A stretch of DNA of 64,000 bases from Pseudomonas paralcaligenes (GTDB taxonomy: Bacteria; Pseudomonadota; Gammaproteobacteria; Pseudomonadales; Pseudomonadaceae). Each line of letters starts with the position of its first letter. The stretch's first letter is position 1. Under the pieces are notes generated by a model, which searched no databases, was not told where the DNA came from, and saw only the letters and a program-made list of their open reading frames with translations. This document shows positions 14,708 to 30,200 of the stretch, one piece after another. Position numbers and translations under genes: made by a program. The stretch lies in assembly GCF_019655855.1 (NCBI RefSeq), contig NZ_BPFX01000019.1, positions 62,001 to 126,000 on the forward strand, in the 5' to 3' direction.

Positions 14708-15946
14708 ATGACCGACTCCCCCTCTCACTCCGTTCCCCACGTCGCCGTCATCGGCGGCGGCCCCGCCGGGCTGATGGCCGCCGAAGTGCTGGCGGCGGGC
14801 GGCGCACGGGTCGAGCTGTTCGACGCCATGCCCTCGGTCGGACGCAAGTTCCTGCTGGCCGGGGTCGGCGGCATGAACATCACCCATTCCGAGGCGAAGG
14901 CGCCGTTCCTGTCGCGCTACCGCGAGCGCGAAGGCGAGATCGCCGCGCTGCTCGCAGGCTTCGACGCCGAGAACTTGCGCGCCTGGATTCACGGCCTGGG
15001 CATCGACACCTTCGTCGGCACCTCGGGCCGGGTGTTTCCCACCGACATGAAAGCCGCGCCGCTGCTGCGCGCCTGGCTCCGGCGCCTGCGCGAGGCCGGC
15101 GTGGCGATCCACACCCGCAGCCGCTGGCTGGGCTGGGATGAGGCCGGCGCGCTGCGCATCGCCACCGCCGAGGGCGAGCGGCTGGTCGCGGCCGACGCCT
15201 GCGTGCTGGCCCTCGGCGGCGGCAGCTGGGCCCGGCTCGGCTCGGACGGCGCCTGGGCGCCGCTGCTGCAGGCGCGCGGCGTGGAGGTTTCACCACTGCG
15301 CCCGGCCAACTGCGGCTTCGAGGTGGCCGGCTGGAGCGAGCACCTGTGCGACAAGTTCGCTGGCGCGCCGCTGAAGAACGTCACCCTGGCTCTGGACGGA
15401 GAAGCACCGCGCCGCGGCGAGTTCGTGCTGACCGAGCACGGAGTGGAGGGCAGCCTGGTCTACGCCCTGTCCGCGGCCATCCGCCAGCGCATCGAGCACG
15501 ACGGACGCGCCCTGGTGCGCCTGGACCTGCAGCCGGACCGCACGCTGGAGAAGATCGAGGCGCTGCTGAGCAAGCCACGCGGCTCGGCCTCGATGGCCAA
15601 GCACCTGCACCGCCAGCTCGGCCTGGATGGCGCCAAGGCCGCGCTGCTGCGCGAGCTGAGCCACACCGAAGACTTCACCGACATGAGCCGCCTGGCGCGG
15701 GCGATCAAGGCGATGCCGATAGAACTGCTGCGCACCCGCCCGCTGGACGAGGCGATATCCAGCGCCGGCGGCGTGACCTTCGCGGCGCTCGACGAACGCC
15801 TGATGCTGCGCGCCCTGCCTGGCACCTTCTGCGCCGGCGAGATGCTCGACTGGGAAGCCCCCACCGGCGGCTACCTGCTCACCGCCTGCTTCGCCAGCGG
15901 CAGGGCCGCCGGGCTGGGCGCGCTGCAGTGGCTGCGCCAGCGCTGA
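14708..15946 (+). CDS. FAD/NAD(P)-binding flavoprotein, HI0933/TIGR03862 type
   Basis: A 412-residue flavoprotein. The N-terminal dinucleotide-binding fold is VAVIGGGPAGLMAAEVLAAG with the acidic end of strand two in VELFDAMPSVGRK. The family signature LLAGVGGMNITHSE follows. The GTSGRVFPTDMKAAP motif, ACVLALGGGSWARLG and the C-terminal FAD-contacting region FCAGEMLDWEAPTGGYLLT are all present. The HI0933/YhiN family is widespread and conserved but its reaction is not established. The gene is monocistronic on the plus strand and ends 70 nt before the restriction locus, so it marks the left flank of that island. Confidence 0.88.
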   Translation: MTDSPSHSVPHVAVIGGGPAGLMAAEVLAAGGARVELFDAMPSVGRKFLLAGVGGMNITHSEAKAPFLSRYREREGEIAALLAGFDAENLRAWIHGLGIDTFVGTSGRVFPTDMKAAPLLRAWLRRLREAGVAIHTRSRWLGWDEAGALRIATAEGERLVAADACVLALGGGSWARLGSDGAWAPLLQARGVEVSPLRPANCGFEVAGWSEHLCDKFAGAPLKNVTLALDGEAPRRGEFVLTEHGVEGSLVYALSAAIRQRIEHDGRALVRLDLQPDRTLEKIEALLSKPRGSASMAKHLHRQLGLDGAKAALLRELSHTEDFTDMSRLARAIKAMPIELLRTRPLDEAISSAGGVTFAALDERLMLRALPGTFCAGEMLDWEAPTGGYLLTACFASGRAAGLGALQWLRQR

Positions 15947-16016
15947 GTGAGACGCCTGTCACAGCGCTCCGCCCCTCTGATAAAGTCCACGGCGATCCCC
16001 AGGGAAGCAGAACGCC

Positions 16017-18386
16017 ATGGATAAGAAGTCGCTCTCCGAACGAGATATCTGCAGCAAGTACATCGCCCCGGCGATCCAACGTGCCGGTTGGGACATGCAC
16101 AAGCAGGTGCTGGAAGAATTCGGATTTACCGCCGGCCGCATCATGGTGCGCGGCAAACTGCACAGCCGTGGCGAGCGCAAACGCGCCGACTACATCCTCA
16201 GCTACCAGAAGAATCTGCCCATAGCCGTGATCGAGGCGAAGGACAACAAGCACTCCGTCGGCTCCGGAATGCAGCAGGCCCTGAGCTATGCCGAGGCACT
16301 GGATGTGCCATTCGTGTTCTCCAGCAACGGTGACGGTTTCCTGTTCCACGACCGTACGCGCACCGGCGCGCAGACCGAAACCAAACTCAGCCTCGACCAG
16401 TTCCCAAGCCCTGACGAGCTTTGGCAGCGCTACTGCCAATGGAAAGGCCTGGACGATCAGGCGCAGAAACGGATAGAAGCCCCTTACTACGACGACGGCT
16501 CCGGGCGCATGCCGCGCTACTACCAGATGAACGCCATCAACCGCACCGTCGAGGCCGTCGCGCGCGGGCAGGACCGCGTGCTGCTGGTCATGGCCACCGG
16601 CACCGGCAAGACCTACACCGCCTTCCAGATCATCTGGCGGCTGTGGAAGTCGAAACAGAAGAAACGCATCCTCTTTCTCGCCGACCGCAACATCCTGGTC
16701 GACCAGACCAAAAACAACGACTTCAAGCCTTTCGGCCAGGCGATGACCAAGATCGCCAAGCGCCAGATCGACACCGCCTACGAGATCTATCTGTCGCTCT
16801 ACCAGGCGGTGACCGGCGCCGAAGAAGAAAAGAACATCTACAAACAGTTCTCCCCGGACTTCTTCGATCTGATCGTGATCGACGAATGCCACCGTGGCAG
16901 CGCCGCCGAAGACTCCGCCTGGCGTGAAATCCTCGACTACTTCACCAACGCCACCCATGTCGGCCTTACCGCCACACCGAAGGAAACCAAGGAGGTTTCC
17001 AGCATCACCTACTTCGGCGAGCCGGTGTACAGCTACACCCTCAAGCAAGGCATCGAAGACGGTTTCCTCGCGCCTTACAAGGTAGTGCGCATCGACTTCG
17101 ACAAAGACCTGCAAGGCTGGCGTCCGCCCAAAGGGATGCTCGACAAGAACGGCGAGCTGATTGAAGACCGTATCTACAACCTCAAGGACATGGACCGCAC
17201 TCTGGTCATCGAGGCGCGCACCCAACTGGTGGCGCAGAAGGTCAGCGAGCTCCTCAAGGCCACCGATCCCTACCAGAAGACCATCGTCTTCTGCGACGAC
17301 ATCGACCACGCCGAGCGCATGCGCCAGGCCCTGGTCAACCTCAACCCCGAGCGCGTGGCCGAGAACCGTAAGTACGTCATGCGTATCACCGGCGATGACC
17401 AGGAAGGCAAGGCTGAGCTGGACAACTTCATCAACCCGGAGACGCGCTATCCGGTCATCGCTACCACCAGCAAGCTGATGACCACCGGCGTCGATGCCCA
17501 GACCTGCAAGCTGATCGTGCTCGACCAGCACATCAAGTCGATGACCGAGTTCAAGCAGATCATCGGCCGCGGCACCCGCATCAACGAGGACTTCGGCAAG
17601 TACTGGTTCACCATCATGGACTTCAAGAAGGCTACCGAGCTGTTCGCTGACCCCGCCTTCGACGGTGACCCCGTGGTGATTTACGAGCCAGGTTCTGGCG
17701 AGCCCCCTGTTCCGCCCGATGAGCCTGAAGGTGGCAACACGGAGCAGCCTGGCAGTGGCGAAGAGGGTCCCACCACTACCGCGGGACCTGGCGAAGGAGG
17801 AGGAGGAAAACCGCGAATCAAATATGTTGTCGCCGGAGTACCGGTTTATGTCATCGCCGAGCGCGTGCAGTACTACGGCCCCGACGGCAAGCTGATCACC
17901 GAGTCGCTGCACGACTACACCCGCGCCTGCGTACACAAGCAATTCGCCTCGCTGGATGACTTCCTCCGTCGCTGGAGCGATGCCGAGCAGAAGAAAGCCA
18001 TCATCGATGAGATGGCCGTTCAGGGAGTGATGTGGGAAGCCTTGGCCGAGGAAGTTGCAGCCAAGCGCGGCCAGCCCCTCGACCCCTTCGACCTGATCTG
18101 CCACGTCGCCTTCGATCAGCCGCCACTCACCCGCAAAGAGCGCGCCGAGCAGGTGAAGAAACGCAACTACTTCGCCAAATACTCTGGCGCCGCTCGCCAA
18201 GTGCTGGAGGCGCTGCTCGACAAGTACGCCGATACCGGCATCGAGAGCATCGAGGACATGCAGATTCTCAAGATCGACCCCTTCAGCCAGATCGGTGCGC
18301 CCCTCGAACTGGTCAAGGCATTCGGCGGCAAGCCTGGGTACCAACAAGCCATTCACGAGTTGGAAGATCAGCTCTACAGCGCCTGA
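16017..18386 (+). CDS. hsdR: Type I restriction enzyme R subunit (endonuclease/translocase)
   Basis: A 789-residue motor-nuclease of an EcoAI/EcoEI-like (type IB) system. The N-terminal nuclease domain has D58 in KRADYIL and E73/K75 in AVIEAKD, the PD-(D/E)xK core. SF2 helicase motifs follow: Walker [13 protein letters not shown] near residue 190, the DECH box VIDECHRG near 288, motif [11 protein letters not shown], and motif [19 protein letters not shown] glycine/proline/acid-rich linker at about residues 560-605 separates the motor from the C-terminal domain that docks on the methyltransferase. Length is typical. It is first in the hsd locus; 78 nt separate it from the inserted regulator gene. 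Codons end in A/T somewhat more often than in neighbouring core genes, consistent with transfer. Confidence 0.95.
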
Positions 18387-18426
18387 CCGGCGAGCGTTGA
18401 CAGCAGGCTGGTCCGCCTACCAGACT

Positions 18427-18450
18427 GTCCTCTGTCCATAGACAGTGGAC
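18427..18450. promoter_or_regulatory. 24-bp palindrome upstream of the wHTH gene (operator candidate)
   Basis: Half-sites GTCC-t-CTGTC and GACAG-t-GGAC flank CATA, giving nine complementary pairs and one mismatched pair. The element lies between the hsdR stop and the start at 18465, about 15 nt upstream of the start codon and just before the GGAGAAG ribosome site. No T-run follows, so a terminator is unlikely. Its position fits an operator for autoregulation by the winged-helix protein encoded immediately downstream. Confidence 0.5.
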
Positions 18451-18464
18451 GGAGAAGACATTTC

Positions 18465-19025
18465 ATGATGAAAGGCCAAGACATCCTGCTGCTGCTCAAG
18501 CTCGCCAGCCTGGAAAACCAGCAGCACTCGGCTGAGCAGGCAGCGGAGCACTTCTCCATGCGCGCGCTGGAGCAGTCCACCGGCATCAGCAAGTCCGAGG
18601 TCAGCAATGCGCTCAACCGCTGCATTGCCGCTGGGCTGGCCAAGCTGGAGCGGGGCAGCGGCATACCGCGTACCAATACCCGCGCCCTCAACGAATTTCT
18701 CGGCCATGGCCTGAAGTACGTCTTCCCGGTGCGCCCCGGCCCCATCGTGCGCGGCCTGGCCACAGCACACGCCGCTCCAGCGCTGACTGGCAAACTATTG
18801 TCCGGCGGCGAGCATATTCCGGTCTGGGAAGATGCTTTGGGCTGCGACATGGGCCAGGCGGTCGAGCCGCTGTTCAAGAGCGTGCCCAGCGCGGCCCGCC
18901 AGGACGAAGGCCTCTACGCCATGCTCGCCCTGGTCGACGCCATTCGCCTGGGCAACGAACGCGAGGCCAGCCTGGCCAGAGAGCTGTTGGAGCAACAGCT
19001 GCGAGGCCCAGCCAATGGCCGCTGA
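18465..19025 (+). CDS. Winged-helix DNA-binding protein, putative antitoxin of an AbiE-like pair
   Basis: A 186-residue protein of no named family that I recognise. Residues about 8-70 look like a winged helix: ILLLLKLASLENQQ, then ALEQSTGISKSEVSNALNRC as the helix-turn-helix and AGLAKLERGSG as the wing. The remainder, including FLGHGLKYVFPVRPGP and DEGLYAMLALVDAIRLGNER, is helical and may form a partner-binding domain. The gene lies inside the hsd locus, preceded by a palindrome, and overlaps the nucleotidyltransferase gene by 11 nt. That arrangement (wHTH first, nucleotidyltransferase second, overlapping) is that of AbiEi/AbiEii toxin-antitoxin pairs. Antitoxin and autorepressor roles are inferred. 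The start could also be the ATG one codon later. Confidence 0.7.
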   Translation: MMKGQDILLLLKLASLENQQHSAEQAAEHFSMRALEQSTGISKSEVSNALNRCIAAGLAKLERGSGIPRTNTRALNEFLGHGLKYVFPVRPGPIVRGLATAHAAPALTGKLLSGGEHIPVWEDALGCDMGQAVEPLFKSVPSAARQDEGLYAMLALVDAIRLGNEREASLARELLEQQLRGPANGR

Positions 19026-19740
19026 ATGGCGCGTGCAGGAGCAGATGCTACAGACCGTGGCCGATGCCCTGGGTCCGGAGCTGCTGCGCCAGGTCGCCTT
19101 TGTCGGTGGCTGCACCACCGCGCTGCTGCTCACCGATGCCTTTGCCCGCGAGGCGGTGCGCTTTACCGAAGATGTCGACGTGATCGTCCATGTGCTCGGC
19201 TATGACAAATGGCAACGCTTGCTCACCGAGCTACGCGAACGTGGTTTTAGGGAGTCGCCCGAGGACGAAGTTATCTGCCGCATGCGCCTACCCAACGCGC
19301 TGACCGGCCGCGAGCTGATCGTCGACTTCATGCCTGACGACGAAGACATCCTCAACTTCACCAACCGCTGGTATCGGGATGCCCTGCAAAGCGCAGCCGA
19401 TCATGCTCTGCCCTCCGGCACTCTAATCCGTGTCGTCACGTCCGGCTACTTCCTCGCCACCAAGCTGGAGGCCTATCGCGGCCGTGGCCGCAATGACCCG
19501 CTGGCCAGCCGCGATATCGAAGACATCCTCGCCGTAGTGGACGGCCGCGCCAGCCTGCACGCCGAACTGGCCCAGGCCTCACACGACCTGCGCGACTACA
19601 TCGCCCAGGCCATCACCGCGTTGCTCGCCCACCGCGACTTCGCCTACGCCGTGCAATCCGCCGCCCGCCAGCAGCAGGCACGGGAAGAACTCATTTTTCA
19701 GCGCCTGGAGGCCCTCGCCGTGCCTCCGGCCCAGCAGTAA
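19015..19740 (+). CDS. Nucleotidyltransferase, AbiEii-like putative toxin
   Basis: A 241-residue DNA polymerase-beta-type nucleotidyltransferase. The glycine pair G31-G32 in VAFVGGCTTALLL and the acidic pair D53/D55 in RFTEDVDVIVHV form the catalytic signature; a third acidic residue is probably in ELIVDFMPDD. The fold and the later GYFLATKLEAYRGRGRNDPL-ASRDIEDI segment, a KLxAxxxR...KDxxD-type motif, match the AbiEii/AbiGii toxin superfamily. Relatives such as MenT add nucleotides to tRNA. The ATG at 19015 overlaps the upstream gene by 11 nt, and hsdM starts 11 nt after the stop, so the pair is fully embedded in the hsd transcript. Toxicity has not been shown; a housekeeping role in phage defence regulation is also possible. 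Confidence 0.75.
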   Translation: MAAEWRVQEQMLQTVADALGPELLRQVAFVGGCTTALLLTDAFAREAVRFTEDVDVIVHVLGYDKWQRLLTELRERGFRESPEDEVICRMRLPNALTGRELIVDFMPDDEDILNFTNRWYRDALQSAADHALPSGTLIRVVTSGYFLATKLEAYRGRGRNDPLASRDIEDILAVVDGRASLHAELAQASHDLRDYIAQAITALLAHRDFAYAVQSAARQQQAREELIFQRLEALAVPPAQQ

Positions 19741-19751
19741 CGGAAACCACC

Positions 19752-21221
19752 ATGTCGATCAGCTCAACCATCAAATCCATCCAGGACATCATGCGCAAGG
19801 ACGTCGGCGTCGACGGCGACGCCCAGCGTATCGGCCAGCTCGTGTGGATGCTGTTCCTCAAGATCTTCGACGACCGCGAGCAGGAATGGGAGCTGATGGA
19901 CGACAACTACAAGTCGCCCATCCCCAGCAGCTGCCGCTGGCGCACCTGGGCCGCCGACCCGGAAGGCATGACCGGCGAAACGTTGAAGGACTTCATCGAC
20001 AACAACCTGTTCCCGCAGCTGCAGAACCTCCACGAATACAGCACCACCCCGGCCGCCTTCGTGGTGCGCGCCGTGTTCGAGGACGCCTACAACTACATGA
20101 AGTCCGGCCAGTTGCTGCGTCAGGTGGTCAACAAGATTCAGGAGGGCGTTGACTTCAACAAGGCCCAGGAGCGCCACGCCTTCGGCGACATGTACGAACA
20201 GCTGCTGCGCGACCTGCAGAGCGCCGGCAACGCCGGCGAGTTCTACACCCCGCGCCCGGTCACCGAATTCATGGTGCGCATGGTCGATCCGAAATTGCAT
20301 GAGAAGGTCATGGACCCGGCCTGTGGCACCGGCGGTTTCCTCACCTGCAGCATCGAGCACAAGCGCAGCCGCTATGTGAAAACCGCTGAGGACGAACGCC
20401 TGCTGCAGGCCAGCATCTTCGGCGTGGAGAAAAAGCCGCTGCCGCACCTGCTGGCCACCACCAACATGATCCTGCATGGCATCGAAGTGCCCAGCCAGAT
20501 CAAGCACGACAACACCCTGAGCCGCCCGCTGATCAGCTGGGGGCCGGGCGAGCGGGTCGACTGCATCGTCGCCAACCCACCGTTCGGCGGCATGGAAGAA
20601 GACGGCATCGAAACCAACTTCCCCGCCGCCTTCCGCACCCGCGAGACCGCCGACCTGTTCCTGGTGCTGATCATGCACCTGCTGAAAGACGGCGGCCGCG
20701 CCGCCGTGGTACTGCCCGATGGCTTCCTGTTTGGCGAAGGCATCAAGAGTCGCATCAAGGAAAAACTGCTGACTGAGTGCAACCTGCACACCATCGTTCG
20801 CCTGCCTAATGGCGTGTTCAACCCCTACACCGGCATCAAGACCAACCTGCTGTTCTTCACCAAGGGCACGCCAACCAAACAGGTGTGGTTCTACGAGCAC
20901 CAGTACCCGGCCGGCTACAAGAGCTACTCCAAGACCAAGCCCATGCGCATCGAGGAGTTCGCCGTCGAGCAGGCCTGGTGGGGCAGCGAGGCCGATGGCT
21001 TTGCCGCACGGGTGGAAAACGAATTCGCCTGGAAAGTCGGCCTGGACGAGCTGCAGACGCGCAACTGGAACCTCGACTGCAAGAATCCGCATATCGGCGA
21101 ACAGATCAGCCATGACCCGGACGAGCTGCTGCGCGATTACGCCCAGCTGCAAGGCGACATTAGCGAGCTGCGCGACCAGCTCAAGGCCGTGCTGGCCGAA
21201 GCCCTGGAGCGCCAGGTATGA
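19752..21221 (+). CDS. hsdM: Type I restriction-modification DNA methyltransferase subunit
   Basis: A 489-residue N6-adenine methyltransferase. The S-adenosylmethionine motif I is VMDPACGTGGFLTCSIEH near residue 186 and the catalytic motif IV is ANPPFGG near residue 273, so the enzyme looks active. The helical HsdM N-terminal domain (about 1-150) includes DVGVDGDAQRIGQLVWMLFL. GDMYEQLLRDLQSAGNAGEF and YTPRPVTEFMVRM are typical of the family. The C-terminal ends in a helical LQGDISELRDQLKAVLAEAL segment that contacts HsdS. The stop overlaps the hsdS start in ATGA (21218-21221), which couples their translation at the usual M:S stoichiometric locus. Confidence 0.96.
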   Translation: MSISSTIKSIQDIMRKDVGVDGDAQRIGQLVWMLFLKIFDDREQEWELMDDNYKSPIPSSCRWRTWAADPEGMTGETLKDFIDNNLFPQLQNLHEYSTTPAAFVVRAVFEDAYNYMKSGQLLRQVVNKIQEGVDFNKAQERHAFGDMYEQLLRDLQSAGNAGEFYTPRPVTEFMVRMVDPKLHEKVMDPACGTGGFLTCSIEHKRSRYVKTAEDERLLQASIFGVEKKPLPHLLATTNMILHGIEVPSQIKHDNTLSRPLISWGPGERVDCIVANPPFGGMEEDGIETNFPAAFRTRETADLFLVLIMHLLKDGGRAAVVLPDGFLFGEGIKSRIKEKLLTECNLHTIVRLPNGVFNPYTGIKTNLLFFTKGTPTKQVWFYEHQYPAGYKSYSKTKPMRIEEFAVEQAWWGSEADGFAARVENEFAWKVGLDELQTRNWNLDCKNPHIGEQISHDPDELLRDYAQLQGDISELRDQLKAVLAEALERQV

Positions 21222-23557
21222 CGACGCCCAATAGATCCCCTCTCCCTCCGGGAGAGGGCCAGGGTGAGGGCCACAACCTGCTCACCACGCATCTGCCGCT
21301 GCTGGCCGGTGCGCCCAATGGCATAAAAAAGCTGCGCGAGCTGATTCTGGAGCTGGCAGTGCGCGGCAAGTTGGTGCCGCAAGATCCGACTGATGAGCCG
21401 GCCAGTGAGCAGCTTAAGCGGATTGTTGAGGAAAAGGCGCGACTGGTGGCCGAGGGCAAGATCAAAAAGCAGAAGCCGCTGACTGAAAGAGATGACGAAG
21501 CTCCAGCATTTGAGCTTCCAGCAGGATGGGCATGGGCTCGGCTATCTGATGTTGTAAATGTCCTTAATGGTCGGGCCTACAAGAAAGAAGAGCTGCTCGA
21601 CGCTGGAACGCCCGTTCTTCGGGTTGGTAACTTGTTCACATCCAATCATTGGTACTACTCAAATCTGACGCTTGAAGAGGATAAGTACTGCAATCCTGGC
21701 GATTTGCTATTTGCATGGTCTGCCTCCTTTGGGCCCTTCATCTGGCAGGGTGAGCGCTCGATTTACCACTACCACATCTGGAAGCTCGACTTTTACGCTC
21801 AAGGTCAGCTCAGCAAGCATTACCTATACAACTTCTTGCTAGAGCAAACGCAAGAGATCAAGGCCGCAGGGCATGGCGTCTCCATGGTTCACATGACCAA
21901 AGAGAAAATGGAAAAGCTGGCAGTCCCTGTGCCTCCTCTTGCCGAGCAACACCGCGTCGTCACCAAAGTTGATGAGCTGATGGCCCTGTGCGACCGGCTG
22001 GAAGCCCGGCAGGCCAATGCCGAAAGCGCCCACGCCCAACTGGTGCAGGCGCTGCTCGACAGTCTGACCCAAGCCAGCGACGCCACCGACTTCGCCACCA
22101 GTTGGCAGCGCCTAGCCGAGCACTTCCACACCCTGTTCACCAACGAATCCCGCATCGATACCCTCAAGCAAACCCTGCTGCAACTGGCTGTGATGGGCAA
22201 ACTGGTGCCGCAAGCCCCCAACGATGAGCCTGCCAGTGAACTGCTTAAACGCATTGCCGAGGAAAAAGCGCGGCTGGCGGCGGAAGGGAAAATCAAAAAG
22301 CAGAAGCGACTACGCGAAGTAGGTGAAGAAGAACAGCTGTTCGACTTGCCCAAAGGATGGGTGTGGTCGCGATTTGGTGACATCTGCGCAATCCAAGGCG
22401 AGTTGGTTCGGCCAGAAGACTTCCCCGATCTGCGCCAAGTTGCACCAGATTGCATTGAGAAGGGTACCGGGCGACTTACCGAGAGTCGTACGGTGAAAGA
22501 ATCCGGGGTCAAAGGTCCAAACAGCAGATTCTATTCTGGGCAAATTGTTTACTCGAAGATCCGCCCCTCTCTGTCGAAAGCCGTTTTAGTTGATTTTGAC
22601 GGACTCTGTAGTGCGGACATGTATCCGCTGGATGCTTTCATCGACTCTCAGTTTCTTCTGAAAGAAATACTCTCCGAGGTGTTTCTTGAGCAAGTCAGGG
22701 TTGCGGAAAATCGAATAAAAATGCCCAAACTCAATCAGGAAAGTCTTACTGGATTTGTACTGCCTATACCCCCAATCACCGAGCAACATCGCATCGTCGC
22801 CAAAGTCGATCAACTGATGGCTCTCTGCGACCAACTCAAAGCCCGCCTTGGCCAGGCCCGCCAGGTGCATGAGCATCTGGCCAGTGCCCTGGTCGAGAAC
22901 GCGCTAAGCGCTGATCGCCAACAGACACCCGCAATTACGGATCGCAAAGCCGCACGCACCCTGCTCGCCGCCGAAATCACTCATCAACTGCATGGCCTGA
23001 GGACATTCGGCCAGCGAAAGCTGCAGAAGGTGATTCACCTGGCCGAACATGCGGCCCAGCTCGCGGCTATCCAGGGCAGCTACCTGCGCGATGCCGCCGG
23101 CCCCCATGATCGCCAGCTGATGGATCAGGTCGAAGGCGGACTGCACAACCATCAGTGGTATGAGCGCATCGATCGCGACACCGTTGGCCATGCCTATCGT
23201 CCGCTGCCTGCGGCGGGTCAGCATCGGCCAGAGTACGAAAACACCTGGTCGACTACCGAGCGCGCCACCATCCGGCAGGTGATCGACCTGATGCGCGGCT
23301 GGGACACGGATCGCTGCGAGCGGGTGGTGACACTATATGCCGCCTGGAACGACTTTCTGCTGGAAGGCAAAAGCGTGACCGACGAGATGTTGGTGCATGA
23401 GGTGATGTACAGCTGGAACGACACCAAGCTGCGCTTTACCGAGGCCCAGTGGCTCACCGAACTCTGTGAAATGAAGAAGCAGAAGCTGCTGATTCCTACT
23501 GGTTTCGGTAAGCGTACCCAAGGCGGCATGCCGACCCTGACTGGCCTCCTGCACTAA
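21218..23557 (+). CDS. hsdS: Type I restriction-modification specificity subunit with C-terminal extension
   Basis: A 779-residue specificity subunit, long for the family (usually 400-600). Two target-recognition domains lie at roughly 95-250 and 370-530. They are separated and followed by near-identical conserved helices: GKLVPQ.P.DEPASE with EEKARL near residues 49-85 and again near 325-362, and the spacers EQHR(V/I)V and KVD.LMALCD near 245 and 525. The start is fixed by the ATGA overlap with hsdM. Residues 7-18 (SPLPPGEGQGEG) are encoded by a REP palindrome. From about residue 573 on there is an extra domain (RTLLAAEITHQLHG, RKLQKVIHLAEHAAQL, YLRDAAGPHDRQL, TLYAAWNDFL, IPTGFGKRTQGG). I associate it with some long HsdS proteins; it faintly recalls Panacea/SocA-type domains. 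Its role is unknown. Confidence 0.93.
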   Translation: MTTPNRSPLPPGEGQGEGHNLLTTHLPLLAGAPNGIKKLRELILELAVRGKLVPQDPTDEPASEQLKRIVEEKARLVAEGKIKKQKPLTERDDEAPAFELPAGWAWARLSDVVNVLNGRAYKKEELLDAGTPVLRVGNLFTSNHWYYSNLTLEEDKYCNPGDLLFAWSASFGPFIWQGERSIYHYHIWKLDFYAQGQLSKHYLYNFLLEQTQEIKAAGHGVSMVHMTKEKMEKLAVPVPPLAEQHRVVTKVDELMALCDRLEARQANAESAHAQLVQALLDSLTQASDATDFATSWQRLAEHFHTLFTNESRIDTLKQTLLQLAVMGKLVPQAPNDEPASELLKRIAEEKARLAAEGKIKKQKRLREVGEEEQLFDLPKGWVWSRFGDICAIQGELVRPEDFPDLRQVAPDCIEKGTGRLTESRTVKESGVKGPNSRFYSGQIVYSKIRPSLSKAVLVDFDGLCSADMYPLDAFIDSQFLLKEILSEVFLEQVRVAENRIKMPKLNQESLTGFVLPIPPITEQHRIVAKVDQLMALCDQLKARLGQARQVHEHLASALVENALSADRQQTPAITDRKAARTLLAAEITHQLHGLRTFGQRKLQKVIHLAEHAAQLAAIQGSYLRDAAGPHDRQLMDQVEGGLHNHQWYERIDRDTVGHAYRPLPAAGQHRPEYENTWSTTERATIRQVIDLMRGWDTDRCERVVTLYAAWNDFLLEGKSVTDEMLVHEVMYSWNDTKLRFTEAQWLTELCEMKKQKLLIPTGFGKRTQGGMPTLTGLLH
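21237..21270 (+). repeat. REP-like palindrome inside the hsdS coding sequence
   Basis: The perfect inverted repeat CCCTCTCCC-tcc-GGGAGAGGG (21238-21258) followed by CCAGGGTGAGGG is the sequence pattern of a common dispersed intergenic palindrome. It lies 20 nt after the hsdS start codon and is read in frame as SPLPPGEGQGEG. As RNA it would form a strong hairpin just inside the coding region. Confidence 0.85.
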
Positions 23558-23570
23558 GAGCCAGCTCCCG

Positions 23571-23670
23571 CCATAGCCCTGCGCGGTCAAAGCCACTCAG
23601 CCCGCTCGGGAGAGGGCTGGGGCGCCCCACGCAGGGTATGGGCTCTAGGCAACGACTAGTTTGAGTGGCT
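23571..23670. repeat. Interleaved inverted repeats after hsdS
   Basis: Two arm pairs are interleaved. CCATAGCCCTGCG (23571-23583) pairs imperfectly with CGCAGGGTATGGG (23630-23642). AGCCACTCA (23591-23599) pairs with TGAGTGGCT (23662-23670). A partial copy of the REP-like palindrome (CTCGGGAGAGGGCTGGGGCG) lies between. The order A-B-A'-B' would give a pseudoknot-like RNA rather than a simple terminator. It may be just decayed REP DNA. Confidence 0.4.
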
Positions 23671-23678
23671 GGCAAACA

Positions 23679-23716
23679 CCCTCATCCCCGGCCCTTCTCC
23701 CGGAGGGAGAAGGGGG
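23679..23716. repeat. REP-like palindrome downstream of hsdS
   Basis: CCCTCATCCCCGGCCC followed by CTTCTCCC-GGA-GGGAGAAGG is the same family as the element inside hsdS, in the intergenic gap (23558-23749) between the convergent hsdS and transglutaminase genes. The gap contains no gene. Confidence 0.75.
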
Positions 23717-23749
23717 ACAAGGCCGAGCGGCTGGACGGTTCGGAGCCCC

Positions 23750-24664
23750 TCATCCCACCGCCGGCAACGGCTCCTCTAGCGGCGTCACCGTCACCCGCAC
23801 GTCCGGATCATGGCTACCGCCGCCGAGGATCACCCCGCGCAGCGGTGACACGTCGGCGAAGTCGCGGCCCCAGCCGAGGGTGATGTGTTCCAGCGCCGGC
23901 AGCAGGTTGTTGGTGGGGTCGAAGTCCACCCAGCCCTGGCGCGGGCAGTACACCGCGACCCAGGCATGCGAGGCGTCGGCGCCGATCAGCCGGGGCTGGC
24001 CGGGCGGCGGCCGGGTCAGCAGGTAGCCGCTGACGTAGCGCGCCGCCAGCCCCCGGGAACGCAGGCAGGCGAGCATCAGGTGGGCGAAGTCCTGGCAGAC
24101 GCCGCGGCGCTCCTCCAGCACCTGCAACAGTGGGGTCGCCACCTGGGTGGCGGCGGCGTCGAAGGTGAATTCCTCGAAGATCCTGCGCATCAGCGCCCGC
24201 ACCGCCAGCAGCAGCGGGCGGCCCGGCGCGAAGCAGTCGGCGGCATAGTCGACGAACACGCCCTTGAGGTTCACGTAGGGCGACTGGAAGCGGTAGCGCG
24301 CGGCCTCCAGCAGCCCGGCGGACAGCGGCTGGCCGCTGTAGCCGAGAGCCGCCACCACGTCCTCCCAGGGGGGTGAGTCCTCCAGTTGCAGGCCGTCGCG
24401 GGCCAGCACTTCCACACGCAGGCTGGCGACCACCCGCAGCTCGTCGTGGGGGCGTTCGAAGGCCAGGCGGGTGAGCGGGTTGCCGAAGGTGTCCAGGCCG
24501 TCCTGGCGCCGGGTCGGCTGCGGGGTGATGGTCAGGTGGCGCTCCTGGCAGAGCTGCCGCTCGCAGTCGCGCGGCCACAGGTGGGCCAGCTGCTGGGCCA
24601 GGGAGACCGGCGCCGAGTAGCGGTAGTGGGTGTCGTGGAGGACCTGGTAGAGGGCACGCTTCAT
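23750..24664 (-). CDS. Transglutaminase-like cysteine hydrolase with bacterial transglutaminase N-terminal domain
   Basis: A 304-residue transglutaminase-fold protein. The N-terminal beta domain opens with YQVLHDTHYRYSAPVSLAQQ and contains LTITPQPTRRQDGLDTFGN. The catalytic core has the nucleophilic cysteine in EERRGVCQDFAHLMLACLR, the histidine in ASHAWVAVYCP and the aspartate in WVDFDPTNN. Such proteins act on peptides or proteins as proteases or acyltransferases rather than as eukaryotic cross-linkers. The start overlaps the stop of the ATP-grasp/alpha-E gene in ATGA (24661-24664), so the two are coupled. A second, larger transglutaminase is in the same cluster. The stop lies close to a REP-like element. 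Confidence 0.88.
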   Translation of the reverse strand: MKRALYQVLHDTHYRYSAPVSLAQQLAHLWPRDCERQLCQERHLTITPQPTRRQDGLDTFGNPLTRLAFERPHDELRVVASLRVEVLARDGLQLEDSPPWEDVVAALGYSGQPLSAGLLEAARYRFQSPYVNLKGVFVDYAADCFAPGRPLLLAVRALMRRIFEEFTFDAAATQVATPLLQVLEERRGVCQDFAHLMLACLRSRGLAARYVSGYLLTRPPPGQPRLIGADASHAWVAVYCPRQGWVDFDPTNNLLPALEHITLGWGRDFADVSPLRGVILGGGSHDPDVRVTVTPLEEPLPAVG

Positions 24665-27238: not shown

Positions 27239-30200
27239 TCAGGAGCGGCGCAGGTCCAGGGTCATGGGCAGTTCATTATTGTTGATCGGTTCGGCCACCG
27301 TGCGTTCACCCGGGCTGTGCCCGTGGCGGAAGAAGCGCGCCATGCGCCGGCTCTCGGCGGCGTAGGCGTTGACCGGCAGCGCCTCGAAATTGCGCCCGCC
27401 GGGATGGGCCACGTGGTACTGGCAGCCGCCGAGGGAGCGCTGCATCCAGGTGTCCACCAGGTCGAACACCAGCGGCGCGTGCACGCCGATGGTCGGCTGC
27501 AGGCAGCTGGCTGGCTGCCAGGCGCGGTAGCGCACGCCGCCGACGAATTCGCCGACCCTGCCGGCGGGCCGCAACGGCACCGGCACGCCGTTGCAGGTGA
27601 GCAGGTAGCGATCCGGCGCCAGGCCGTTCAGCTTCACCTGCACCCGCTCCAAGGACGAGTCCACATAACGCACGGTGCCGCCGACGGCGCCCTCCTCACC
27701 CAGCACGTGCCAGGGCTCCAGGGCCTGGCGCAGTTCCAGGTCGATGCCCTTGACGGCGTAGTCGCCCAGGCGCGGGAAGCGGAATTCCAGGTGCGGGGCA
27801 AACCATTCGGCGCGCAGCGGGTAGCCGGCGGCGTTGAGTTCCTGGATGACGTCGGCGAAGTCCTGCTCGACGAAGTGCGGCAGCAGGAAGCGGTCGTGCA
27901 GCTCGGTGCCCCAGCGCGCCAGCTTCGCCGGGCGGTACGGCTCGTTCCAGAAACGCGCGACCAGGGCGCGCAGCAGCAGTTGCTGGACCAGGCTCATGCG
28001 CGCGTGCGGCGGCATCTCGAAGGCGCGCAGTTCGAGCAGGCCGAGGCGGCCGCTGGCCGAGTCCGGCGAGTACAGCTTGTCGATGCAGAACTCGGCGCGG
28101 TGGGTGTTGCCGGTGACGTCCACCAGCAGGTTGCGCAGCAGGCGGTCGACCAGCCAGGGCGGGCACTCGCGGCCCGGCTCGGGCATCTGCGCGAAGGCGA
28201 TCTCCAGCTCGTAGAGGGCGTCGTTGCGCGCCTCGTCCACCCGCGGCGCCTGGGAGGTCGGGCCGATGAACAGGCCGCTGAACAGGTAGGACAGCGACGG
28301 GTGGTTGTGCCAGTAGCTGATCAGGCTGCGCAGCAGGTCCGGGCGGCGCAGGAAGGGCGACTCGGCCGGCGTGGCACCGCCGAGGACGAAGTGGTTGCCG
28401 CCGCCGGTGCCGGTGTGGCGGCCGTCGAGCATGAACTTCTCGCTGCTCAGGCGGCAGTGGCGCGCCGCCTCGTAGAGGAATTCGGTGCGCTCGACCAGTT
28501 CGTCCCAGGTGGCGGCCGGGTGGATGTTGACCTCGATCACGCCGGGGTCCGGGGTGACGCGGAAGTGGGTCAGGCGCGGGTCCTGCGGCGGCTCGTAGCC
28601 CTCCAGCAGCACCGGGCAGCGCAGCTCGCGGGCGGTGGCCTCGATGGCGGCGACCAGCTCCAGGTAGTCGTCCAGCCGCTGCAACGGCGGCATGAACAGG
28701 TACAGGCGGCCGTCGCGCGGTTCGGCGCACAGCGCAGTGCGGACCACGCCGGCAGCCGATTCGAACAGGCCCGGCGCCTGCAGCCCCTCACCCTCCGCCG
28801 GCGGCTTGCGCCCGGCCGGGTGCAGCGGCATGCGCAGCTGCTGGACGATGCTCTGCCGGCTGGGCAGCGGCGGGAACGGCTGGTGCGGGTCCTGCGGCGC
28901 GACGTAGGGGTAGTCCAGCTCGCCGACCCAGGGTTGCGAGTCCAGCGGCAGGCGGTAACCCAGCGGCGAGTCGCCGGGGATCAGCCGGCAGTGTTCGTCG
29001 CGCAGGAACCAGGGCCCGGTCAGCCAGGCGTCGTCGCCGGCGCTGCGCATCAGCGGCAGGACGTGGCCGACCACTTCGCCCAGGCCGCGGCAGAACACCT
29101 TGCGCAGGCGCTCGCGCTCCAGCGGGTCGGCCAGGCGCGCGTCGCCCGGGGTGACGTTGGCCGGCAGGCGGCGTTCGCGCCACAGGTAGTAGAGCCAGTC
29201 CTCGTAGGCCGGGAACACGTGTTCGGCCTCCAGCCCCAGGTGCCCGGCCAGGGTGGCGAGGAAGCGCCCGGCCAGGCGCGCATCGGCGCCGTAATAGCGG
29301 GTCTCGTCGGCGTACAGCGCCGGGTCCTGCCAGATCGGCTCGCCGTCCTTGCGCCAGAAGCAGTTGAGCGACCAGCGCGGCAGCTGCTCGCCGGGGTACC
29401 ACTTGCCCTGGCCGAAGTGCACCAGGGCCTGCGGCGCGTAGTGAGCGCGCAGGCGGTGGAACAGCTCGGCGGCCAGGCGGCGCTTGTTCGGGCCGAGGGC
29501 GGCGGTGTTCCACTCGGCGTCGTCCGGGTAGTCGATGGCGACGAAGGTCGGCTCGCCGCCCATGGTCAGGTGCACGTCGCCGTAGGCCAGCTCGGCGTCC
29601 ACCTGGCGACCGAGGCCGAGGATCTCCTGCCACTGCTCCTCGCCATAGGGCATGGTCACACGAGGCGCTTCCCAGATGCGCTCGATGCGCATGTCGTGCT
29701 CGAACTCGCACTCGCACTCGTCGAGCACCCCGGAAATCGGCGCCGCGGCGGAGGGCTCGGGGCTGCACGCCAGCGGCACGTGGCCCTCACCGGCGAACAG
29801 GCCGCTGGTGGGGTCGAGGCCGACCCAGCCGGCGCCGGGCAGGTACACCTCGCACCAGGCGTGCAGGTCGGTGAAGTCCTGCTCGGCGCCGCTGGGGCCG
29901 TCGAGGGATTTGACGTCGGCGGTGAGCTGGATCAGGTAGCCGGAGACGAAGCGCGCGGCCAGGCCCAGGTGGCGCAGCAGCTGCACCAGCAGCCAGGCCG
30001 AGTCGCGGCAGGAGCCGGAGGCCAGTTGCAGGGTCTCCTCCGGCGTCTGCACGCCCGGCTCCAGGCGGATCAGGTAGCGGATGTCCTGGGACAGGCGCTG
30101 GTTCAGCGCGACCAGGAAGTCGACACTGGGCGTCGGCGTGCGGTCGATGCCGGCCAGGTACTCGGCGAACAGCGGCCCGCAGGCGGCCGTCACCAGGTAG

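Follow-up and report, generated by a model that had tools for sequence, protein, structure and literature searches.

A PDC-M21 gene pair behind a predicted operator in the hsdR–hsdM interval of a Pseudomonas type I restriction–modification operon

The locus and its gene pair

The DNA analysed here, 64,000 nucleotides of Pseudomonas paralcaligenes (contig NZ_BPFX01000019.1; hereafter the window, with position 1 as its first base), contains a type I restriction–modification operon in which two additional genes lie between hsdR and hsdM, all on the forward strand. The restriction subunit gene hsdR (16017–18386; EcoAI/FtnUII type, NCBIfam subunit R model, 1229 bits) is followed after 78 nt by gene A (18465–19025), which encodes a winged-helix protein of 186 amino acids, a predicted autorepressor and antitoxin. 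Gene A shares 11 nt with gene B (19015–19740), which encodes a nucleotidyltransferase of 241 amino acids, the predicted toxin. The modification methyltransferase gene hsdM (19752–21221) begins 11 nt after the B stop and is followed by the specificity gene hsdS (21218–23557), recognized by model matches. Upstream of A lie a -35-like TTGACA (18397–18402, forward strand) and, after a spacer of 18, a weak presumptive -10-like CAGACT (18421–18426, forward strand), directly followed by a predicted winged-helix binding site of 24 bp with four half-sites, GTCC-N3-GTCC-N2-AGAC-N3-GGAC (18427–18450). The preliminary description of this DNA, made from the sequence alone, had reported the overlapping pair and its tight hsdR and hsdM flanks, which the open reading frame (ORF) coordinates bear out; its starting position, 18427, is the first base of the operator and not a gene start.

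Both proteins match models of a catalogued candidate defence system, PADLOC PDC-M21, over most of their length (A, PDC-M21A, E 1e-73; B, PDC-M21B, E 4e-97, its single match in the genome), and the order hsdR–pair–hsdM recurs in five more loci (L001–L004 and L006; L denotes loci and G genomes throughout). For both reasons, the pair is not a chance arrangement. The combination had been thought perhaps undescribed; given the PADLOC models, it is a variant of a catalogued candidate rather than a new kind of system. The third PDC-M21 component, C, is not present at the window locus, where hsdM follows B so closely. No characterization under the name PDC-M21 was found by literature search, and the PDC sets go back to a preprint of Payne et al. 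on 'guilt-by-embedding' (bioRxiv 2024, as cited in the accessible parts of PMC12255303, PMC12137116 and PMC12988326).

Among the closest loci (L001–L004), hsdS shows 43–56% identity, as against 88–96% for hsdR, hsdM and the pair; specificity is, on this comparison, exchanged, and the pair keeps company with hsdR and hsdM. The match to hsdM in L006 ends after 57 residues, 702 bases short of the contig end and with unrelated sequence beyond, so that hsdM looks broken by an insertion (L006:10719–10889 onwards).

A MenT/AbiEii-like nucleotidyltransferase and its winged-helix partner

The catalytic signature described earlier for B, GG at 31–32 and D53/D55, is indeed intact and invariant, both in the 69 sequences of alignment A1 and in a set of 130 (130/130). 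Residues G31, G32, T51, D53, D55, D104, K150, D167 and D170 are all invariant; T51, two residues ahead of the first catalytic Asp, is likewise conserved in 130/130. A solved-fold search with B placed MenT1 at the top and MenT3 next, and the score against AbiEii (PF08843) fell just below the cut-off (22.2 against 22.5 bits), a family matched at E 0.01 by 49 of the 69 members of A1. A MenT/AbiEii-like fold for B is therefore well supported by sequence and fold comparison. The proposed structural match to AbiEii/MenT thus holds for the MenT folds and narrowly misses the AbiEii family threshold.

The AbiE-like reading of the pair as a whole fared less evenly. The gene order, a winged-helix autorepressor then a nucleotidyltransferase, is that of AbiE (type IV), yet A belongs to no AbiEi Pfam family: up to E 1, its Pfam matches comprise MarR_2, HTH_36 and GntR only, and it resembles MarR-type winged-helix proteins with an extra C-terminal domain. 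AbiEi binds inverted repeats, according to the accessible part of PMC3985639. The AbiE operator consists of two 23-bp elements spaced by 3 bp, whereas four half-sites are found here.

Gene A sits upstream of B in 156 of 157 distinct full-length B loci, the exception (L061) beginning at a contig edge. Across 298 Pseudomonas genomes, A is present in 47 and B in 46. A occurs alone in G221 (a 78% complete genome) and beside a partial or broken B in G167 and G259, and both genes are partial in G164. An orphan asymmetry, with the toxin never found without its antitoxin, was considered and dropped as uninformative given these near-equal counts. In L019, L041 and L076, the B match is in pieces and the winged-helix gene open, possibly through sequencing error in L076.

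A conserved operator upstream of the pair

When ten upstream regions from hsd-embedded and hsd-free copies were aligned, the best-conserved block, TGTCC..TGTCC..GGACAGTGGACG, lay just before A, and the TTGACA box was common to seven of them (the window, L001–L005 and L019). The consensus operator spans 24 bp, GTCC-N3-GTCC-N2-GGAC-N3-GGAC, and is matched at 16/16 positions in L005, L007, L008, L010, L012, L014, L016, L017 and L019 and at 15/16 in the window. A consensus-free score for the four-half-site architecture, devised after the GTCC sites had been seen and then used on all clades, reached at least 14/16 in 102 of 164 distinct upstream regions, compared with 16 of 4046 windows of 200 bases taken elsewhere in the longer of 80 GTDB loci. 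A chance palindrome at 18427–18450 is rejected by this background count. The letters of the half-sites vary by clade (GTCC, GTTC, ATTC) at constant spacing, a pattern that a regulator evolving with its own site would leave. The operator is thus well supported as a conserved element, and its footprint gives a strong inference that A binds it and represses its own promoter.

Matches across the genome call for restraint. At up to two mismatches, the operator pattern occurs three times on the forward and twice on the reverse strand and its backwards-read control seven times on each; since the control matches more often, such matches were treated as noise, and only the two sites without mismatch were used, that of the window and that of a second hsd locus in the same genome (below).

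The cassette takes the place of a promoter-like spacer

A relative of the window HsdM (E 1e-100) was found in 31 of the 298 Pseudomonas genomes. Of 30 EcoAI-type loci, 4 have the A–B pair between hsdR and hsdM, 2 have an HNH-type gene there (L228 by Pfam HNH_2, L233 by likeness) and 23 have a spacer of 34–195 nt; the remaining one shows no upstream hsdR. Compared with close module-free loci, the similarity of the window stops at about 18367–18377, near the hsdR stop, and restarts at about 19750–19752 (19744 against L237), which indicates that the spacer was replaced by the cassette. A TACAAT or TAGAAT hexamer lies 39–43 nt before hsdM in 18 of the 23 module-free spacers and in 114 of 4600 shuffled ones. 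At the window locus, the promoter-like element of the spacer is thus apparently gone, and the hsdM–hsdS unit starts 11 nt after B; if read-through from hsdR is not enough, its expression would depend on the module promoter and operator.

Phosphatase-like genes of two folds follow B in relatives

We scored the ORF following B in 144 of the 157 full-length loci, leaving out 13 with less than 900 nt downstream; the window itself stands outside this count. It encodes a PP2C-like protein in 57, a calcineurin-like phosphoesterase in 13, a methyltransferase in 8 (L001–L004, L188, L204, L205 and L216), an SbcD-like protein in 2, and a NERD-domain protein and an HsdR-like helicase in 1 each; 22 are unclassified and 40 had none by the rule used, which undercounts, as tblastn finds further matches, PP2C-like in L025 and calcineurin-like in L198. 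A rule by which the pair always precedes a methyltransferase was rejected, the methyltransferase being next after B in 8/144. Component C, followed by a methyltransferase, occurs in nine loci (L012, L016, L155–L158, L160, L165 and L167), and likewise in L076, where B is split in two frames.

The PP2C-like kind is the one matched by the PDC-M21C models, for which 'PP2C-like' is our label, drawn from motifs; the genes of L030, L016 and L172 have no Pfam family at E 0.01. PstP, a housekeeping phosphatase, belongs to the PP2C family. The PP2C-like gene overlaps B by 4 nt in 39 of the 57 loci, and its presumed metal ligands are nearly invariant (D35, D115, D187 and D214 in 57/57; N16 and D18 in 56/57; D215 in 55/57). 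The calcineurin-like gene lies within -11 to +15 nt of B, with the residues that we take to be metal ligands (D8, H10, D39, N67, H68, H185, H235 and H237) kept in 13/13; the 11 such loci in the tree all fall on one branch of 18 rows (support 94/63), with Legionella and relatives. The C model also matches genes in 5 of 14 control genomes, Bacillus subtilis included. The window genome has three distant matches to it, the best at 48.8 bits, compared with 195.6 bits for the L030 gene beside A and B.

Two unrelated phosphatase folds beside the same nucleotidyltransferase suggest that there is a phosphate to be removed, and phospho-control of B is likely on this comparative evidence. In MenT3, we take the first catalytic Asp to be D80. 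In MenT1, T39 precedes D41 (accessible part of PMC11375011), and PstP dephosphorylates MenT3 in vitro (accessible part of PMC11541572). T51 of B is likened to the MenT phosphoacceptor because its spacing to the first catalytic Asp equals that of T39 and D41 in MenT1, an equivalence by spacing and not by residue alignment.

Distribution of the module

In counts that include weak and partial matches, B was found in 46 of 298 genomes of Pseudomonas; the corresponding figures are 20/244 for the order, 41/369 for the class and 33/398 for the phylum. Plasmid records with a match number 113 of 72,556, all below 60% identity, and none of 50,697 phage records has one. Thirty Pseudomonas B loci (of 51 matches) include four of the window hsd type and four of a second hsd type. 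Among the 80 GTDB loci, the best of 150, hsdR–pair–hsdM occurs in 5, while 69 lack any match to the Hsd proteins of the window in the fetched flanks; the tie to hsd genes proposed at the outset is therefore a minority arrangement. In L041, the pair stands before hsdR with B in two pieces, and L063 has divergent hsd genes nearby. L005, nested within the hsd clade, is an open pair beside a NERD gene with no hsd match in its flanks.

The copies of the Pseudomonas fluorescens group (L024–L036, L038 and L050) mostly share one chromosomal neighbourhood, with no hsd matches and without the 24-bp operator.

A second type I family, an Abi_2 locus and BREX

A module including C lies between hsdR (about 1180 amino acids) and hsdM of another type I family in G046, G055, G182, G186 and G418 (in G186, near a contig start, only the last 246 hsdR residues were matched). 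A single clade for the B proteins of both families was rejected by the approximately unbiased test (p 0.00026, with the groups chosen once the first tree was known), so that cargo probably entered the slot on two or more occasions. These comparisons make the hsdR–hsdM slot a docking site for cargo in two type I families, with apparently independent entry into each. Among 9 of 89 Pseudomonas genomes with the second-family HsdM, the slot holds M21 A–B–C in two, an Abi_2 gene in two, an ATPase-like ORF with a second ORF in one and an ORF of 500–503 amino acids in two, and is nearly empty (285–293 nt) in two. Across L267–L272 and L257, the cargo of this slot is exchangeable; that of L269 and L271 is presumably Schlafen/AlbA-like.

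In both Abi_2 loci, one of which belongs to the window's own genome (Abi_2 identity by Pfam), a 16/16 M21 operator lies shortly after hsdR. In the window's genome, it lies outside the window, upstream of the Abi_2 gene (L257:7761–7784, equal to G000 contig C9:83760–83783), and the A protein of the window could act on it in trans. The other Abi_2 genome, G042, has no A match at E 1e-6, so the operator there is a relic or serves another protein.

Modules also enter BREX loci: in L012, L016, L076, L165 and L167, A–B–C sits between brxC and pglX, immediately ahead of the latter (families checked for L016), three other ORFs separating brxC from A in L012; in L073, the pair follows brxL. A short ORF after an open A–B pair (L159:8706–8993) fuses the start of a PP2C-like gene to a piece of HsdM and looks like the deletion remnant of an A–B–C–hsdM locus.

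Model and alternatives

Taken together, these data make it probable that the pair is the A and B part of PDC-M21, a self-contained and self-regulated, toxin–antitoxin-like defence cassette docked in the hsdR–hsdM slot. A would bind the operator and repress its own promoter. B, once freed, would carry out nucleotidyl transfer, with tRNA 3' ends as the most likely acceptor, and arrest growth, as its fold and active site suggest. A would hold B in check, probably in the manner of MenA and MenT, both through binding and through induced autophosphorylation of T51, and in many relatives a translationally coupled phosphatase would take the phosphate off again; at the window locus, which is without C, reactivation of B would have to come from a housekeeping phosphatase or from loss of A. 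Because the cassette replaced the hsdR–hsdM spacer, transcription of hsdM and hsdS, though not of hsdR, would be at least partly under A, and an infection in which A is depleted or blocked would increase B, HsdM and HsdS in concert. Of these inferred points, B as a toxin is roughly the best supported, followed by the antitoxin role of A, then phospho-control and, last, regulation of hsdM–hsdS.

Several observations weigh against this model. The footprint marks a conserved site and does not identify the protein that binds it, and the operator was not found in 62 of the 164 upstream regions, the P. fluorescens-group copies included. As regards the operator and its distinction from a chance palindrome, an automatic scan of 15800–23800 returned no consensus promoter, an inverted-repeat search of 18380–18480 returned nothing, and at up to three mismatches 0.44 operator matches per window are expected by chance, with one found. 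The promoter-like hexamer is missing from 5 of the 23 spacers without a module, namely L230 and L250–L253, the last four being the most distant, and hsdM could still be expressed by transcription running on from hsdR. Among the matches listed, no solved structure is clearly related to the C-terminal domain of A, which leaves the MenA-like step an analogy, and G182 combines an open B with an A split over two frames, a mild argument against A being strictly required.

The most serious alternative, possible if clearly less probable, is that the hsdR–hsdM spacer is a tolerated landing site and the pair passive cargo that works there as it does anywhere else, with no functional link to restriction or modification, as the short spacers and HNH-type genes in the same slot, the other cargo of the second family and the position of most copies away from hsd genes would allow. 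Passive cargo fits less well with a cassette that took the place of a promoter-like spacer rather than settling beside it, that ends 11 nt from hsdM, and whose relatives also stand ahead of methyltransferase genes elsewhere, both in BREX and in a second type I family. It is also conceivable, if unlikely, that B is a regulatory or signalling nucleotidyltransferase, modifying proteins or making a nucleotide signal, and A a plain repressor; the MenT1 and MenT3 folds at the head of the search, the fitting T-x-D-x-D motif and a steady linkage to a repressor, typical of toxin–antitoxin pairs, argue for a toxin instead. The preliminary description had proposed that loss or inhibition of the restriction–modification locus frees the toxin, after the precedent of PrrC, an anticodon nuclease of hsd loci; in such a guard, the Hsd proteins would silence B, and anti-restriction or hsd loss would release it. 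Like PrrC, the pair is a candidate suicide effector placed inside a type I operon, which is what speaks for the guard. PrrC is of a different protein family, and regulation here appears self-contained: the pair has its own operator. Its association is not confined to hsd loci, most copies have no hsd neighbours in the fetched flanks and L005 remains open without them. We consider the guard highly improbable and have set it aside.

The model that we favour, a self-regulated cassette, has several partial counterparts. B shares the DUF1814/MenT fold of the Mycobacterium tuberculosis MenAT systems (MenT1, MenT3) with intact motifs, and T51, by its spacing, is a candidate Ser/Thr phosphoacceptor ahead of the DxD; unlike in MenAT, A combines a MarR-type winged helix with a domain lacking a clear solved relative, and a coupled phosphatase-like gene accompanies the pair in about half of the relatives. 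RptR–DarTG2 of an Escherichia coli type I restriction–modification island is, similarly, a toxin–antitoxin pair embedded in such an operon, with a repressor that controls the restriction–modification genes (accessible part of PMC12255303). In that island, according to the same source, DarTG2 is placed between hsdS and hsdR, and control falls to a separate 9-kDa protein, RptR, with TAGCTA sites; in the window, the repressor encoded by the pair itself would take this role. None of the papers listed by literature search was found to describe the operator, the replacement of the spacer or the pairing with phosphatases, a check that did not extend to the preprint behind the PDC sets.

A wider reading is offered tentatively, as rather doubtful: a phospho-switched MenT-like system in which the repressor gains control over how modification enzymes are expressed. 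Modules would repeatedly land 5' of methyltransferase genes (EcoAI-type hsdM, hsdM of the second family and the BREX gene pglX) and, in the EcoAI type at least, replace the native promoter-like spacer and leave the methyltransferase behind the 24-bp operator; one repressor would coordinate several defence loci in trans, and phosphatases of two folds would reset the toxin, the window type having dispensed with them. How MenT/AbiEii-type toxins are reactivated after phosphorylation is a question to which M21 operons with phosphatase-like genes of two folds would give a genetically tractable answer. The conserved operator offers an immediate test of who regulates embedded restriction–modification and BREX genes, a question raised by RptR, and exchangeable cargo with a retained operator suggests that embedding can rewire a defence operon, not merely store genes.

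Minor observations

A predicted tRNA-Pro (29454–29527) lies inside a long ORF on the opposite strand and may be a false call. NERD-domain genes closely akin to that of L005 (85–93% identity) follow solo M21 copies of two clades (L005, L019, L083 and L085) and also stand at the end of the second hsd locus of the window's genome (L257:2386–3156).
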